Origin: Pseudomonadota bacterium
Lineage (GTDB): Bacteria; Bdellovibrionota_B; Oligoflexia; Oligoflexales; CAIYRB01
Assembly (NCBI GenBank): GCA_026390435.1
Contig: JAPLFY010000031.1
Coordinates: 116,553-180,552 of the forward strand
DNA: 64,000 nucleotides
Direction of reading: 5' to 3'
The number at the start of each line of letters is the position of its first letter. Position 1 is the stretch's first letter. A model generated the notes under the pieces. The model saw only the letters and a list, made by a program, of their open reading frames with translations, was not told the origin of the DNA and did no database searches. A program made the position numbers and the translations under genes. Of this stretch, positions 13,866 through 21,991 are shown one piece after another.

Positions 13866-16064
13866 ATGAATTGGGATATCCTGATGAAACAGGCCCGCGA
13901 TTGCCATACTAAGCAAGCGTGGGAGCAGTTCTTCGATGAGACCGGCGAAATCCTGGCGACAAGTAGCCATGCCAAGCCGATCGAGGATATCTTTAAAATT
14001 CTGCGCCAGGACCCACAGAGCCTCCTCTATGACCCGCGGATTTGGGGGCGGCTGATTCAGGGATGCTTATCTAGCTGGAGTCTTGAGCTCGGCCATGAAA
14101 TCACCGAGTTCACTAAGAAAATAAACTCCCCTAAACTAAGCATACCCACAGCTCAGCTTTTTCTCGAAAGTGGCTCACCCACCATAGCCCGCGAAATTGC
14201 AAATCGAGCACTCCGGCTGTCCAATCTGCCACCAGCAGAACGTTTGCAGTTAGCGATGATAGTCGTCTCTTGCTATGCGGAGGAAGGCAAAAGAGAGAAG
14301 TCGATTCGATTGCTAAGCGAGATTCAGGAGTCATTGCAGAGCCCCTCTCTGGATGCGCGCGAACGCGCCGACTTGCTGACAAATATGGGCCGTATGGAGT
14401 TTTTCCTGGGGCGCTACTCGCAAGCCGGCGAGCAGTTCTACCAAGCATCAATCCTGTACAGAAATTTGTCTGACTGGGAGGCTGCGGCTAAAACTATATT
14501 CAACACCGCGGTTTGTTATCTAAATGGCGGAACAGATCGGCGGGCAGATGCATTTGCCATGATAGAGGAATGTCGCCGCCTAGCTGAGGCAGAAAAACTG
14601 CCAGGCCCGCTAGCCCATTGCGAAGCATCATACGGCACCGATGCATTTCAACACGGAAATTTTAGAGGCGCCCTAGAGCACCTCCGTCGAGCCCTAAATT
14701 ACTTGCCAAACTCGGACAAGAGCTACCGCAAACTTCGCATTGTTTCCATGCTTGCTAGTACTTATTTAGCCATGGGCCGATATCATTTGGCGAAAAAACT
14801 TGGGCACCAGGCAGCGGAATTAATCGCACATGATGACGCAGCACGGCGCACCCCCCGCCACGAGGCGCTAACCGCAGAGCTACTCTGGGAAGACGGACTT
14901 ATAGAAGAAAGCCAGGGCATACTGCGCCAATCCACCTTGCCGCTCGAAATGCACGGTGTGCACACACTGGATGAGCTCTCAACAGTCGCTCGTTTCACCC
15001 TCCAAAATGCACGACTAAACGTTCGCAACCTGCCGACCAAATTGGCGGCCGATCAATCTTTGCAGCGAAATCCACATGCGTGTCTTGATTATAAATATGC
15101 TTTAGGAGAAATGGCACTTACGACAGGGGACTCAAAACAAGCTGAGCTATATTTCGGTGAATGCGTAAAAAAAGGCCAAAGTTACGGTTATCGCCTCCAT
15201 GAAACCTTAGGGACTCTCGGCCTTATACAGACCCTTCTCTACCAAAAGCGCGCCAAAGAGGCCTCAGGACTTATTAGCGAATTTGAGACTTTAGTCGCAC
15301 GAATGGGTGAGACACCACTCAAAACCCAAGTTATGTTTGTGCAAGCTGCACAAGCGTATCAATTGGGCGATTTTACAGAATTCCAGCGCATACTACGACT
15401 GGCCTCCAAATCTAAGCGCCAGAGCTTTGCCGATAGATTTGTGCTTGGTGGCTGGATCGCAACCATTGAAGGGCGCGCTTCGCGCCTAACTGGGGGATGG
15501 CAATCCCATCTCCTAGCACGCTATACGAGAATCTACTTCGCTCCGTCTTTAAAGGCGATAGATCAGCGCCATTATCGTATCAGTGATCATTACATCGTAA
15601 GCTTAGAACGGCACCCGTCTCTAGCCGATTTGCTGAATTATTTACTTTTAAAAAGTAGTTTTAGCGCCACCACTGCTGAAATTCAAAGCAGCGTTTGGAA
15701 ACAAAGCCTGCACACGCAAGGTTGGCAGCAAAAGATACGCAACACGATTATGCGACTGCGCGACTTCTTCCCATACACGATCGCACCGATCATCATGCAC
15801 ACAGATACAATCGCGCTGTTTAGCGAAGCGATAACAATTCACCCCAGAAGAATTCAAGGGGCCACAGCAGACACAGAGATCGTCCGCCTGCTGGACGACA
15901 TTCCCATGTCCAGCTTTGAACTAGCAAGTCGCCTTCAAATCTCACCGGCCACAACCAAGCGGTTACTAAAGAAATTGACGGATGAACACGCTGTCGCCGC
16001 CTTCAAAGATGGCAGGAATGTTTATTACCGATCAAATAAGTCTCACTTAACCATACCGCCCTGA
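13866..16064 (+). CDS. TPR-repeat protein with C-terminal winged helix
   Basis: A 732-residue cytosolic protein built of helical repeats. Several TPR-type pairs are visible, for example LTNMGRMEFFLGRYSQAGEQ, FGTDAFQHGNFRGALEHLRR-type spacing, and MLASTYLAMGRYHLAKKLGH. The last ~60 residues (PMSSFELASRLQISPATTKR then LLKKLTDEHAVAAFKDGRNV) read as an ArsR/MarR-like winged helix ending with a wing and YYR. It may be a large TPR-containing transcription regulator. AAGGA sits 6 bases before the ATG. The 3-prime end overlaps by 22 bases a convergent reading frame ending at 16043. Confidence 0.7.
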   Translation: MNWDILMKQARDCHTKQAWEQFFDETGEILATSSHAKPIEDIFKILRQDPQSLLYDPRIWGRLIQGCLSSWSLELGHEITEFTKKINSPKLSIPTAQLFLESGSPTIAREIANRALRLSNLPPAERLQLAMIVVSCYAEEGKREKSIRLLSEIQESLQSPSLDARERADLLTNMGRMEFFLGRYSQAGEQFYQASILYRNLSDWEAAAKTIFNTAVCYLNGGTDRRADAFAMIEECRRLAEAEKLPGPLAHCEASYGTDAFQHGNFRGALEHLRRALNYLPNSDKSYRKLRIVSMLASTYLAMGRYHLAKKLGHQAAELIAHDDAARRTPRHEALTAELLWEDGLIEESQGILRQSTLPLEMHGVHTLDELSTVARFTLQNARLNVRNLPTKLAADQSLQRNPHACLDYKYALGEMALTTGDSKQAELYFGECVKKGQSYGYRLHETLGTLGLIQTLLYQKRAKEASGLISEFETLVARMGETPLKTQVMFVQAAQAYQLGDFTEFQRILRLASKSKRQSFADRFVLGGWIATIEGRASRLTGGWQSHLLARYTRIYFAPSLKAIDQRHYRISDHYIVSLERHPSLADLLNYLLLKSSFSATTAEIQSSVWKQSLHTQGWQQKIRNTIMRLRDFFPYTIAPIIMHTDTIALFSEAITIHPRRIQGATADTEIVRLLDDIPMSSFELASRLQISPATTKRLLKKLTDEHAVAAFKDGRNVYYRSNKSHLTIPP

Positions 16065-16286
16065 ACCCAAGCCTCGAAGTTTTTCACTTCAGCCGGCGTG
16101 TTACTCCCAAATTTCGGCATCGTTTTAGCCAATATCGTGGCCAGAGAATCACTGGCGCTCGCCTTCGCTGTTTCGTAGTCGGAAATTTGTGGTGAAGTTC
16201 CCGACGGCCCGTGACAACTAAAGCATTTTGCCCGAAGGTAAGTCTCAATGTTGGGAGTGTAGGTTATCAGTCCTACAGCGCCTACC
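16043..16286 (-). pseudogene. detached C-terminal cytochrome-like repeat of the preceding lipoprotein
   Basis: An open frame without its own start follows the stop of the lipoprotein at 16282, shifted by one base. It encodes an 80-residue module with a canonical CFSCH heme motif (AKCFSCHGPSG). It ends TPAEVKNFEAWVQGGMVK, and its layout mirrors the first repeat (EKQCLGGCHDAG; EKNLFANWVAAGMPQ). The shift falls at a run of seven G (16287-16293; C on the coding strand). One added base would join the two into a 289-residue protein. It could be a sequencing error, a phase-variable tract or a true frameshift. The last 22 bases overlap the TPR gene. Confidence 0.75.
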
Positions 16287-16911
16287 GGGGGGGCGTCGCT
16301 GCGGTGCCAGGCTGCGCACTATTAGATTGCGGCGTGGGAGACGCTACAGTTTTAGCGCAGTTCGAAGCAGTTTTCTTGGGCGTCTTTTTCGGCGCTACGA
16401 CTGTATCCGGAGAGGAATTACCGCTACCTGAGCCTGTCACGGTGAAGTCTTTGCCGTTGTTAGTGGCGGTGGTTGCCGCAGCATCAGACTGGGGCATCCC
16501 AGCCGCAACCCAATTGGCAAAGAGATTTTTCTCTTCCGCTGTCATCGTTCTGCGACGCGGCATACGACCCGCGTTAATGCTGTCAAGAGAGACATTTGCG
16601 GCAGCCTTTGCTTCTGCATAGGTTGATAACGGAGGCGTCTGAAGACCGGCGTCGTGACAACCGCCCAGACATTGTTTTTCGATGATTTTTTTTATCGTCA
16701 CATCGTAGCCGATGACTGCCTCGGTTAAGGACAAACACTCGCCCTCTTTTTTCGCGTCGCCATCACCCGCAGAGTCTGAAGCTCCGTATCGCTGATCGGA
16801 CACGGCGACGGGAGGCTGGCTGCAAGCGGACAAGCCCGTCACGCTTAATAGAAGGCAGGCCCTGAAAAATAAATTCCCTACAAAGGAACTTGTAGCGCAG
16901 GCATTGCTCAC
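16282..16911 (-). CDS. cytochrome c-like lipoprotein, N-terminal part (frameshifted)
   Basis: A secreted lipoprotein: the signal peptide ends LLSVTGLSAC with the lipid cysteine C30. A module at about residues 66-140 has CLGGCH (C81, C85, H86), a CX3CH variant of the heme-attachment motif, then the AEAKAAANVSLDSINAGRMP helix and EKNLFANWVAAGMPQ. This resembles the small cytochrome-like domains that end lipoproteins of delta-like bacteria. A Thr/Ser/Asn/Pro-rich linker leads to the stop, where a second such module continues in another frame. The start is GTG at 16909-16911 with AGGAAA upstream. It would be a periplasmic heme protein matured by the Ccm system. Confidence 0.72.
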   Translation of the reverse strand: MSNACATSSFVGNLFFRACLLLSVTGLSACSQPPVAVSDQRYGASDSAGDGDAKKEGECLSLTEAVIGYDVTIKKIIEKQCLGGCHDAGLQTPPLSTYAEAKAAANVSLDSINAGRMPRRRTMTAEEKNLFANWVAAGMPQSDAAATTATNNGKDFTVTGSGSGNSSPDTVVAPKKTPKKTASNCAKTVASPTPQSNSAQPGTAATPPR

Positions 16912-17311
16912 AATACTTTTCCTCGCGAGCCCCTAGTACAACGGGGCAAAAAAAACACTAGTTTTAAACGATACGATCCGATTCCTTTTGAGACACCTGC
17001 TTATCGGCAGAAGATCGGCAGAACTTGACGATAAATTTCGATTTACCAGTATATTTTTGGCCTTACCGGCTACTGGAGAACCTAACCCAATGATTTGCGT
17101 CAGTTTCCTAAGATTTATGCGACCTAGAGGCGAGTTAGACTAGTTTTTTACGATGTAATTCCTGATCAAATCCGGACTAGGTTTCTGTTCAAAAAATCTA
17201 TGTACAGGATTCATTATTCGATGCTACGGTTTGCCCATAAAGATTGCGTGTCCTCATAATTTATCGCTTTTTCTGCGGCCAAAAACTTTGGCTCAGCAAG
17301 AAAGGTCTGTA
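16912..17311. other. intergenic region upstream of the mannanase
   Basis: About 400 bases, AT-rich in places, divergent between the cytochrome-like lipoprotein and the GH5 gene. A CCCC...GGGG hairpin next to A8 lies at 16934-16960, close to the lipoprotein start. I see no convincing gene. AAAGGT lies 5 bases before the GH5 ATG. No sigma-70 promoter is clear enough to place. Confidence 0.4.
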
Positions 17312-18547
17312 ATGCTTTGCTTAATTCGCCGTGGCTTTTTGCTGGCGCTATTGGGATTGGCCGCTGAAGCCTATGCCGTTCCGAAACAAAACATGCAGGA
17401 TAGCACCAGCGATTTCGTTAAGGTGGCTGGAACTGAGTTCACATTAAACGGAAAACCCTTTTATTTTCAGGGTACGAATTTTTATCGCCTAAGTCTCATT
17501 GAGCGGCAATCAGATGCACAGGTTTATGAGATCATGCAGCAGCTCTCCGAGAAGGGCATGAAAACCGTACGAATCTGGGGCTTTTCTTGTGGCGAGAGCA
17601 ACGCCCAAGCGATGTTGAAGAGCGTTAGTAAAAATTCAGCAGAATACGACGAGATAGCGCTACGCAGACTAGACCTGGCTATTGACGCAGCACGGCGTGC
17701 TAACATTAAAGTGATATTGCCGCTGGTAAATTACCAAGCTGAGTACTGCTCAATGTCATGGTGGGTTAAGCAGGTAGTAAATAAAGAGGATCCAAACCTT
17801 TTCTATACCGACCCAGATGTTCGTGAAGCGTTTAAGCGCCATGTAGGTCAACTGCTATCACGGGCCAATACCGCTTATATGGACAAACGGCACGAAAACG
17901 TTACCTACGCAAATGACCCGACGATTATGGCTATCGAGCTAGCTAATGAGCCTCATACCGAAGACTGGTACGAGTCCGAAAGAGGAATACGCTCCGGCGA
18001 GATCCTATACAACTGGCTCAAGTTCATGTCCGACTTCATCAGGTCCGTTGACCCAAATCATCTGATCGCCTCGGGCGAGGAAGGCTACTCCGCCGCACCC
18101 ACGTCACAGGACGCAGTGGATAAGCATTGGTGGCTCTCTGATGGTTCGAAAGGCGCAGACTATGAGCGCAATCTAACCCTTGCCAATATCGACTTCGCAA
18201 CTGTTCATGCGTACCCAACTCACTGGATGGTCCCAGCCGAAGACATAGAATGGTTTGGGACTCATTATTTAAAGGATCGCGCCTCGATCGCACACAAGAT
18301 CGGCAAACCAGTCGTCCTTGAGGAAATTGGCATCAGCAATATTGAAAATCCATATCTTGGTTATACCAAGGAGCCAGAACTCTGGCTGGAGCAATTACTT
18401 CACGCGGCTAACGCAGCGAATTATGCTGGCACAATGATCTGGCAGCTGGTGCCTACGGGCTCCGAGGAAGGTGAATTCATCTATGACTTCACATCCCCGG
18501 TAGCCGCCGTAGTTTTTAAACAAGCCGATTACATGAATAAGCACTAA
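17312..18547 (+). CDS. secreted GH5 endo-beta-mannanase-like glycoside hydrolase
   Basis: A GH5 TIM-barrel enzyme, closest in my judgement to the GH5_7 endo-1,4-beta-mannanases that cut mannan backbones. From the ATG at 17312 (AAAGGT upstream) it has a signal peptide MLCLIRRGFLLALLGLAAEA. Core motifs are GTNFYRLSL, KTVRIWGFSCGE, MAIELANEPH with the acid/base glutamate at about E213, and KPVVLEEIGIS with the nucleophile at about E338. A longer frame exists from TTG at 17231, but its added 27 residues would bury the signal peptide. 411 residues is normal for the family. No carbohydrate-binding module is attached. It converges with an expansin-like gene. Confidence 0.9.
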   Translation: MLCLIRRGFLLALLGLAAEAYAVPKQNMQDSTSDFVKVAGTEFTLNGKPFYFQGTNFYRLSLIERQSDAQVYEIMQQLSEKGMKTVRIWGFSCGESNAQAMLKSVSKNSAEYDEIALRRLDLAIDAARRANIKVILPLVNYQAEYCSMSWWVKQVVNKEDPNLFYTDPDVREAFKRHVGQLLSRANTAYMDKRHENVTYANDPTIMAIELANEPHTEDWYESERGIRSGEILYNWLKFMSDFIRSVDPNHLIASGEEGYSAAPTSQDAVDKHWWLSDGSKGADYERNLTLANIDFATVHAYPTHWMVPAEDIEWFGTHYLKDRASIAHKIGKPVVLEEIGISNIENPYLGYTKEPELWLEQLLHAANAANYAGTMIWQLVPTGSEEGEFIYDFTSPVAAVVFKQADYMNKH

Positions 18548-18566
18548 ACGCTAAAGCCCCACCGGC

Positions 18567-18592
18567 GTCTCTTACTCGATCGTGTAAGAGAC
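18567..18592. terminator. hairpin between convergent GH5 and expansin-like genes
   Basis: A 9-bp perfect stem, GTCTCTTAC and GTAAGAGAC, with an 8-base loop. It overlaps the last codons and stop of the minus-strand gene and lies 20 bases after the GH5 stop. No T tract follows in either direction, so it is a weak terminator candidate, perhaps bidirectional. Confidence 0.4.
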
Positions 18593-19555
18593 TGGCGTAT
18601 AGGGTGAGGAACACGTGGTTCCACATTCAGTGGAAAAGTTGAAACTATAGATCCTTCCATTGTTGATCAACTGATCAGCACTGTCATAGACACGGATCTT
18701 ATAGGGCGCTTTAACTCCGGACGGTAGTTCATATACCTGCCCATTATCTCCAACCATTTTAGCAGCGCGCCATTGACCATCAACCAAGGCCTCGACACCG
18801 TGAATTCCATTTTCGAGGCGCGAGACAATAATAGGCAGCCAAAGGGCTTGTGCATTCCGCGCCAAGGCGATTTCAATATCCCCGGTATAATTAGGCGCCG
18901 GAATATAAGTCCAAGTCACTTGCCGATTACCCCAATGCTGCGGCAACTCTATGGCTTCCTCGCTACCTTTTTTGAACTGAGTTAATGCCGCTATCGAAAG
19001 ATCTAAGTGAAATGGATCATCGCGGCACCACGCATTGCCATCTTGGCAGCTGTCCGCCACCAACATAGCCAAGGTAGCTCCGTTAAATCGGTCACTCACC
19101 CAAGGCTCGCCCTTCGCATCATGACAAAATCCACTATTCGACGCGCCATCATTGTTACCAGTGCAATAATCACCGATTGTGACCTGTAACCAACGACCAC
19201 AATTGCGCCCATTGTCAAACACACCCACTACTGAAGACTGCTCAACACCAATCGGTCGTGGAAAATTCACTGAATAATTGCCAGGTGTATTCTGCACATT
19301 CAGCGCGACAAAGTTCTGGGTCTCTAGTTTATCTTGCGGTACGCCGCAGCCGCCAGCAGGCACACCTAAACCGTCAAAGTGGGTGGCATTACCAGTAAAC
19401 GGACCGGCGCCAAATAACAATGGCGTGGGATCGCGGAACGGCACTTGCTCGCCTGAAGTTTTAGGGCGGCGCTCAGCTCCGTCGTTAACAGAGTGCTGAC
19501 AATCGACCGTCAAAGCAAAGAGACAATAAACGGCCAGTGTTTTAACATTACTCAT
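18572..19555 (-). CDS. expansin-like protein (DPBB plus cellulose-binding-like C domain)
   Basis: Expansins loosen plant cell walls without hydrolysis. After a hydrophobic N terminus (about 1-20), the double-psi beta-barrel shows THFDGLG, a GGCG turn, FVALNVQNTP, NCGRWLQVTIGDYC, LVADSCQDG and FHLDLSIAALTQF. The DSC and HLDLS blocks correspond to the catalytic-like and wall-binding motifs. The C-terminal ~90 residues (VTWTYIPAPNYTGDIEIALA to YKIRVYDSADQLI) fit the beta-sandwich binding domain, where bacterial expansins have CBM63. Six or more cysteines suggest disulfides. It is convergent with the GH5 gene. About 327 residues. Confidence 0.78.
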   Translation of the reverse strand: MSNVKTLAVYCLFALTVDCQHSVNDGAERRPKTSGEQVPFRDPTPLLFGAGPFTGNATHFDGLGVPAGGCGVPQDKLETQNFVALNVQNTPGNYSVNFPRPIGVEQSSVVGVFDNGRNCGRWLQVTIGDYCTGNNDGASNSGFCHDAKGEPWVSDRFNGATLAMLVADSCQDGNAWCRDDPFHLDLSIAALTQFKKGSEEAIELPQHWGNRQVTWTYIPAPNYTGDIEIALARNAQALWLPIIVSRLENGIHGVEALVDGQWRAAKMVGDNGQVYELPSGVKAPYKIRVYDSADQLINNGRIYSFNFSTECGTTCSSPYTPVSYTIE

Positions 19556-19949: not shown

Positions 19950-20365
19950 TCAGAGTAGCTTGGTAGCAACTTTCTGGCTCTGATTATATTCGAGCATTGC
20001 TTTGGGCAACTCTGCACTCAGTGCCGCGGCGCGGCGCGCAGGATCCGGCTTGGTGCTAAGGAACTCCGGCGGAGTTACGCCCAGCTGCGCCATCCGCTGC
20101 CAAAGTGCAATCGCCTCGCTTGGGTCATAACCGGCACGAGCCATATAAACAATTGCTGGCTTAGTCGTTCACCAGAGTGACGAGCGACTGCATGCCCTAT
20201 CTCATGCCCCAACACGGCAGCCAACCCAGCATTCGTTTTGGCGATTGGCAAAATACAAGAAGCAGGCAAAGGAGCAAGGCGCCGCCTCTGCGTCTCTTCG
20301 ATGGTAACGCAAGCAACCAGGGCCAAGGCGGCGCAGGTGGTAATACTGATGAGTCAAGTCTTCAA
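19950..20365 (-). pseudogene. decayed M48-family lipoprotein metallopeptidase
   Basis: M48 lipoproteins (LoiP/BepA-like) are periplasmic zinc peptidases of envelope quality control. Remnants are a lipoprotein-type signal CAALALVAC, then RRRLAPLP, ILPIAKTNAGLAAVLGHEIG with HEIGH, AVARHSGERLSQQL, and in another frame IYMARAGYDPSEAIALWQRM to KVATKLL. The glutamate-containing zinc-ligand region (normally an EADxxG-type block) is missing between QQL and IYMAR, and the long N-terminal stretch before ILPIAK is also missing. A TTG-AAG-ACT start at 20363-20365 is followed at once by an in-frame TGA. So two internal deletions, a frame break and a nonsense codon are visible. Confidence 0.85.
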
Positions 20366-20863: not shown

Positions 20864-21991
20864 ATGAAATTTTTCAACTTAATTAGTATTTTTGTATTAT
20901 CAATCCTCCAGGCTTGTGGATCAGCCAAAACCAACAGCAGCCAACTCAAAGAGGGTTGGAACGCATATAACGACCCCCTACTACTAAGCGGAAATTTCGA
21001 TCGCAACTTTTCGACACTGCCTCTGACAGGCGCACTACCGACGGTGCCATGGACTGACAGCTATTGGCCAAATTATTTGGGTGGTGTATCGCAACGTTGG
21101 CGGAACCCTCCTGCGCCGGCCGACCAATTTGGCTACAAGTCGCCCACCAAGCGCCAGCTATCTCGGATGACGCTTGCTCAACGCTCAGAACTCTCTCCGG
21201 CAGAGAAATTTGATGCTCTTGTGGGCCGCTATGACTATCCCTCAGTGGCACGCGAGCGCGCCAGGGTAAGCCCAGACAATGCAACTTGGGAAGGGATGTG
21301 CCACGGTTGGGCTGCGGCCTCTTTAAATTTTAAAGAACCGCGACCAACCGCAGTGACCAATGCCGATGGAATCAGCATCCCCTTTGGGTCCTCAGACATC
21401 AAAGCTTTGCTCAGCTATTACCAAGGGGATATTTCGTACACTCCTGCACGCATGCTTGGCACTAGATGCAATATAGACCTAGTACGCTATCCAAATGCAG
21501 CAAAGGATCACCCTGAATGCAAGGGAATCAATGCCGGAGCCTTCCACGTCGCCTTGACTAATCTAGTTGGCAAAGAGCACGTTGGTGTAATTGCGGACGT
21601 GTCCCACGGGAACGAAATTTGGAATCAACCAATTTACGCATATTCATCTAAAATCACGCAAAAACAAGAGCCCACGGAAGGCGCTGCCGCGGATGCTACA
21701 TCAGAGTTAGTGGTCCACACTGACTTGAGCTACACCCTCGAGGTCGACCCCAATTGGAATGCTCTTAATGGAACTGAGGACTGGACCGGGGTAACCGTGG
21801 CTTATGATTACCGCGTAGAACTCAATGCTGATGGTGACGTTGTCGGAGGCTCCTGGATTAACCCCAATATTCCAGATTTCTTCTGGCTGCAAGGGGCGCC
21901 CCGCTTTGAAGGCTATTACGGCGCTATTAAGGCTGTCTACGAGCGCTCACTTGTTGGTAGAGAACTACCTGATCCAAGCATACCTTTGTGA
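20864..21991 (+). CDS. transglutaminase-elicitor-like lipoprotein
   Basis: A 375-residue lipoprotein: MKFFNLISIFVLSILQAC with lipid cysteine C18. The body matches, from memory, the TGase_elicitor family first seen in Phytophthora GP42, whose bacterial members carry a WxGxCxxWA motif. Here it is ATWEGMCHGWAAAS with C146, then GAFHVALTN with H228 and GVIADVSHGNEIWNQPIY with D245, a plausible Cys-His-Asp triad. PFGSSDIKALLSYY and GGSWINPNIPDFFW are further conserved-type blocks. A short run (AACAGGAAG) precedes the ATG. It would act outside or on the cell surface, perhaps on host or prey protein. Substrate unknown. Confidence 0.72.
   Translation: MKFFNLISIFVLSILQACGSAKTNSSQLKEGWNAYNDPLLLSGNFDRNFSTLPLTGALPTVPWTDSYWPNYLGGVSQRWRNPPAPADQFGYKSPTKRQLSRMTLAQRSELSPAEKFDALVGRYDYPSVARERARVSPDNATWEGMCHGWAAASLNFKEPRPTAVTNADGISIPFGSSDIKALLSYYQGDISYTPARMLGTRCNIDLVRYPNAAKDHPECKGINAGAFHVALTNLVGKEHVGVIADVSHGNEIWNQPIYAYSSKITQKQEPTEGAAADATSELVVHTDLSYTLEVDPNWNALNGTEDWTGVTVAYDYRVELNADGDVVGGSWINPNIPDFFWLQGAPRFEGYYGAIKAVYERSLVGRELPDPSIPL

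Follow-up and report, generated by a model that had tools for sequence, protein, structure and literature searches.

A probable private frameshift in a two-module cytochrome-like lipoprotein gene

Known systems and how the locus compares

Class I c-type cytochromes (Pfam PF13442, Cytochrome_CBB3, and PF00034, Cytochrom_C) are expected to show the pattern Y, CxxCH, MP, W and G, and these are the residues common to the modules described here. The likeness extends to their placing, with a motif of the CxxCH type towards the N-terminal end of the module, a conserved Met-Pro at the position expected for the axial ligand, and a C-terminal helix with a conserved Trp. It is less good in other respects: taken singly, the modules of our gene do not reach the Pfam cut-off, the heme motif of module 1 is CX3CH and the fold matches are weak.

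G/C homopolymers drive phase variation in other bacteria; the variable tracts of Neisseria meningitidis are predominantly those of 8 or more, and a poly-C tract that switches from C5 to C6 and back is mentioned as well (PMC5084427). Like the poly-C and poly-G contingency loci of Neisseria, our gene codes for a predicted envelope protein and has its frame determined by the length of a G/C run, but it differs from them in that the run is short, is not conserved in relatives and lies in a contig with no excess of such runs. The resemblance to ordinary strain-specific frameshift pseudogenes is closer: a homopolymer indel, found in one genome only, in a gene with intact relatives and with paralogues in its family. 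The difference here is that the gene loses only its second module, and that module 1 could still be made and exported. We consider a private and recent frame-breaking indel, which has left a one-module lipoprotein, to be the best reading of the locus, with a probability of about 0.62.

Architecture of the split gene

In the window, by which we mean the whole stretch of 64,000 nucleotides that was analysed, the truncated ORF runs along 16282..16911 on the minus strand and has an orthologue in the nearest relative, genome G002. It has a GTG start at 16911 and a TAG stop at 16282-16284, and encodes 209 residues, in which a signal peptide with the lipobox LSAC is followed by module 1 (CLGGCH, the conserved MP, and MPRRR) and by a linker rich in Pro, Thr and Ala. 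It is the visible lipobox on which the prediction of a lipoprotein is based. The frame is lost within the linker, at a homopolymer of exactly seven C (16287..16293 on the minus strand, G7 on the plus strand; C5 in the nearest relative), which on the coding strand sits just before the TAG stop. Module 2 follows in the -1 frame at 16043..16297 on the minus strand, with its stop at 16043-16045 and with CFSCH and the conserved MP, W and G; the translation of this frame reads VGAVGLITYTPNIETYLRAKCFSCH...GGMVK, with 80 residues of module 2 after the run and with CFSCH, MPKFG, W and GG in that order. Independent translation of module 2 was ruled out, as its own frame has neither an ATG, GTG or TTG start upstream of the heme motif nor a signal peptide.

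The preliminary description of this DNA had placed the end of the lipoprotein at TAG 16282, the G7 run at 16287-16293 and a module with CFSCH in the shifted frame, and we confirmed the coordinates, the strand and the residues, as well as the arithmetic by which one extra base would give a read-through protein of 289 residues. The claim that a frameshift splits a two-module gene also stands, but with two corrections, since the first motif is CX3CH rather than CxxCH, and the nearest intact copy has five C, two bases off, and not eight. A relative with eight G, which had been proposed as a sign of error in the assembly, was not found; G002 has five.

The module family and its likeness to cytochromes c

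The two modules had been described as homologous, and they do belong to one family. They score 89 and 85 bits, far above chance, against a profile that we built from 37 modules of relatives, with both genes concerned left out. On the same profile, module 2 of the window gene scores 8 bits below module 2 of G002. A search of six genomes from the genus with the module alignment yielded 22 multi-module proteins, with either two or three modules each, and in 21 of these all the modules are in one frame, the sole split being the window gene. Homologues with two repeats, for which the preliminary description had suggested looking, thus exist, both in the G002 orthologue with its one intact ORF and in other multi-module members; the next most similar proteins after that of G002 are in G004 and G005. 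The genome of the window itself has three intact two-module paralogues (C44, C52 and C146) and two single-module relatives (C96 and C131).

In this genus the lipoprotein family is expanded; its members have one, two or three cytochrome-like modules, and the linkers between these are long and either of the (PA)n type or rich in Pro and Thr. The value of the present result lies mostly in annotation: the window gene belongs to this expanded modular family, and its split is best regarded as a lesion of one copy, not as a recoding site.

We regard the modules as cytochrome c-like, an assignment made on sequence, and they would accordingly be expected to bind heme. The family profile matches c-type cytochromes in PDB. 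With a cut-off of 27 for PF13442, both module 2 (26.0) and the 209-residue protein (18.7) fall below, whereas the intact G002 protein reaches 32 and passes with two stretches. The predicted fold is all-helical (pLDDT 87), and no cytochrome was among the Foldseek matches to this fold up to E 10. VIA gave weak matches to cytochrome c (Z 2.0-3.2, the best about 3), which did not rise above those to unrelated entries.

The heme-attachment motif is of the CxxCH type in module 2 (CFSCH), and in module 1 it is the CX3CH variant CLGGCH, common to the window and G002. CX3CH is accepted among heme motifs (PMC10734462). The most similar proteins of G004 and G005 have CxxCH, and the additional residue of this motif appears to have been gained within the genus.

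Origin and age of the frame loss

G002 belongs to the same genus and is a metagenome-assembled genome labelled Loclat, from a published lake dataset (PMC8121793). Its record was the sole hit when contig records were scanned for another assembly of the species of the window. Its orthologue of the split gene (contig CAIWTN010000088.1) is syntenic, with 83% protein identity, and over 134 kb the DNA of the two genomes is about 94% identical. At the site of the run G002 has C5, and a single intact ORF contains both modules, so that the C7 of the window differs from the nearest intact copy by two bases. It would be equally possible, and indistinguishable from this difference, that the lineage of the window lost a single base of a longer in-frame run.

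An ordinary private frameshift mutation was not among the three options offered in the preliminary description (phase variation, programmed frameshifting and assembly error), and it is the best fit. By this account, a gene that encoded a lipoprotein with two modules, similar to a diheme cytochrome, would have been hit by an indel in the short C run of the linker between its modules, probably through replication slippage. The product would be the 209-residue lipoprotein with module 1 only, and module 2 would be neither translated nor exported. The loss is likely to be tolerated because the genome has no fewer than three intact paralogues with two modules and a further two relatives with one, although redundancy among them is itself presumed. 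The indel, the intact relative and the in-frame state of all the other family members that were checked have been demonstrated, and we infer that the assembled DNA, including the count of C7, is a true copy of the DNA of the organism.

The nearest competitor is that the count of C7 is a consensus or assembly error and that the true gene is intact. This would suit a draft genome of 153 contigs, a frame difference located exactly at a homopolymer, and a module 2 that is open and mostly under constraint. Against it, indel errors are rare in the contig. The 134-kb stretch shared with G002 allowed a comparison of around 110 ORFs in either direction. In the window genome the two-module gene was the one clear frame split, and a minor one lies close to where a short ORF ends. 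In G002 three clear private frameshifts were counted in about 110 genes, each of them at or beside a homopolymer. As both genomes carry few private frameshifts, the rate is ordinary and homopolymer frameshifts are normal for both drafts; with one clear case among the roughly 110 genes, the idea that frameshifts are a general fault of the assembly was rejected. Long open frames contain most of the other C7 and G7 runs of the contig, and conserved residues of module 2 have been altered, both of which speak against an error. We therefore think an error unlikely, and in agreement with the preliminary description it is a possible cause, yet one that is not needed to explain the split.

The substitutions in module 2 bear on the age of the lesion. 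Between the window and G002, dN/dS is 0.09 for module 1 and 0.28 for module 2, as against 0.05 and 0.10 for module 2 in two intact orthologous pairs. The signal comes from about 23 substitutions, and for a near-identical split Fisher's test gave an uncorrected p of 0.045. Two prolines that are kept by G002, G004 and G005 are changed in module 2 of the window; when the ten differing residues were polarised, 4 fell on the branch of the window and 3 on that of G002, and 3 could not be assigned. These small numbers hint that module 2 may have come under relaxed constraint after the frame was lost. With 12 substitutions of free drift, module 2 would be expected to stay free of stops 68% of the time, and the absence of an in-frame stop would fit a very young lesion, an error or continued use alike. 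The lesion should therefore be young or, at the limit, an error.

If the run were phase-variable, slippage would switch the number of modules in the lipoprotein back and forth between one and two. The C5/C6 tract and the other G/C switches known from bacteria provide precedents (PMC5084427), the product is a predicted lipoprotein, and the length of the run differs between the window and G002. A run of 7 is however short against the 8 or more that predominate in Neisseria meningitidis (PMC5084427), and neither the run nor the loss of frame is kept in any relative. In the 294-kb contig of the window, G/C runs of at least 5 are depleted (180 observed, 309 expected), as are those of at least 6, whereas runs of at least 7 are at chance (13 observed, 16 expected). 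Runs of at least 9 are absent from the contig, its two 8-base runs are in no ORF of at least 100 aa, and the longest run in the whole genome is ten. With runs at or below chance and none above 8 in the contig, there is no signature of contingency loci, and poly-G/C contingency loci across the contig were ruled out by these counts. The phase variation proposed in the preliminary description thus lacks a supporting signature in the G/C runs of contig or genome, and we hold it to be improbable. We give very little credence to the stronger idea that the C run is a live switch for one or two heme modules, by which cells of one population would differ in an electron-carrying protein; the split would matter more only if the length of the run varied within a population.

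Programmed frameshifting had also been suggested. By this reading, a -1 shift of the ribosome, or else slippage in transcription, would take place at the C run and yield both forms from one gene. It is hardly credible, even if a -1 shift is what the frames require and a tRNA paired with CCC on the C run can move back by one base and pair with CCC again. G002 lacks the long run and reads straight through with C5, no split occurs in the 21 other multi-module members, and the RNA beyond the run has no greater folding stability than shuffled sequences (z = +0.67, for local folds free of pseudoknots). A conserved programmed frameshift was rejected, G002 and the paralogues being in frame and local RNA structure being absent.

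Neighbouring genes

The convergent neighbour of the split gene (13866..16064, plus strand) encodes a TPR protein with a C-terminal winged-helix domain and is not part of the feature. At its 3' end it shares 22 bases with the end of module 2, an arrangement that is the same in G002, and in G004 a homologue of this gene adjoins the two-module gene.

About 3 kb away from the split gene, a peptidase M48 gene is broken at window positions 19950-20353 (minus strand). It lacks two stretches, of 153 and 210 bases, of the G002 gene, which is intact on contig C111 in an open frame of 256 codons. Large deletions such as these are not the product of homopolymer error. They suggest that gene decay is under way in the neighbourhood by lesions of another kind, and they count in favour of a private mutation in the split gene.

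Adjoining the split gene, at window positions 17231-19555, are convergent genes for a GH5 cellulase-like protein (plus strand) and an expansin EXLX1-like protein (minus strand), a pair that suggests a possible use of plant or algal wall polymers. Further on, at 20864-21991 (plus strand), a lipoprotein-like ORF of 375 aa has a strong match (E 7e-34) to PF16683, the transglutaminase elicitor family, which is named after oomycete proteins.
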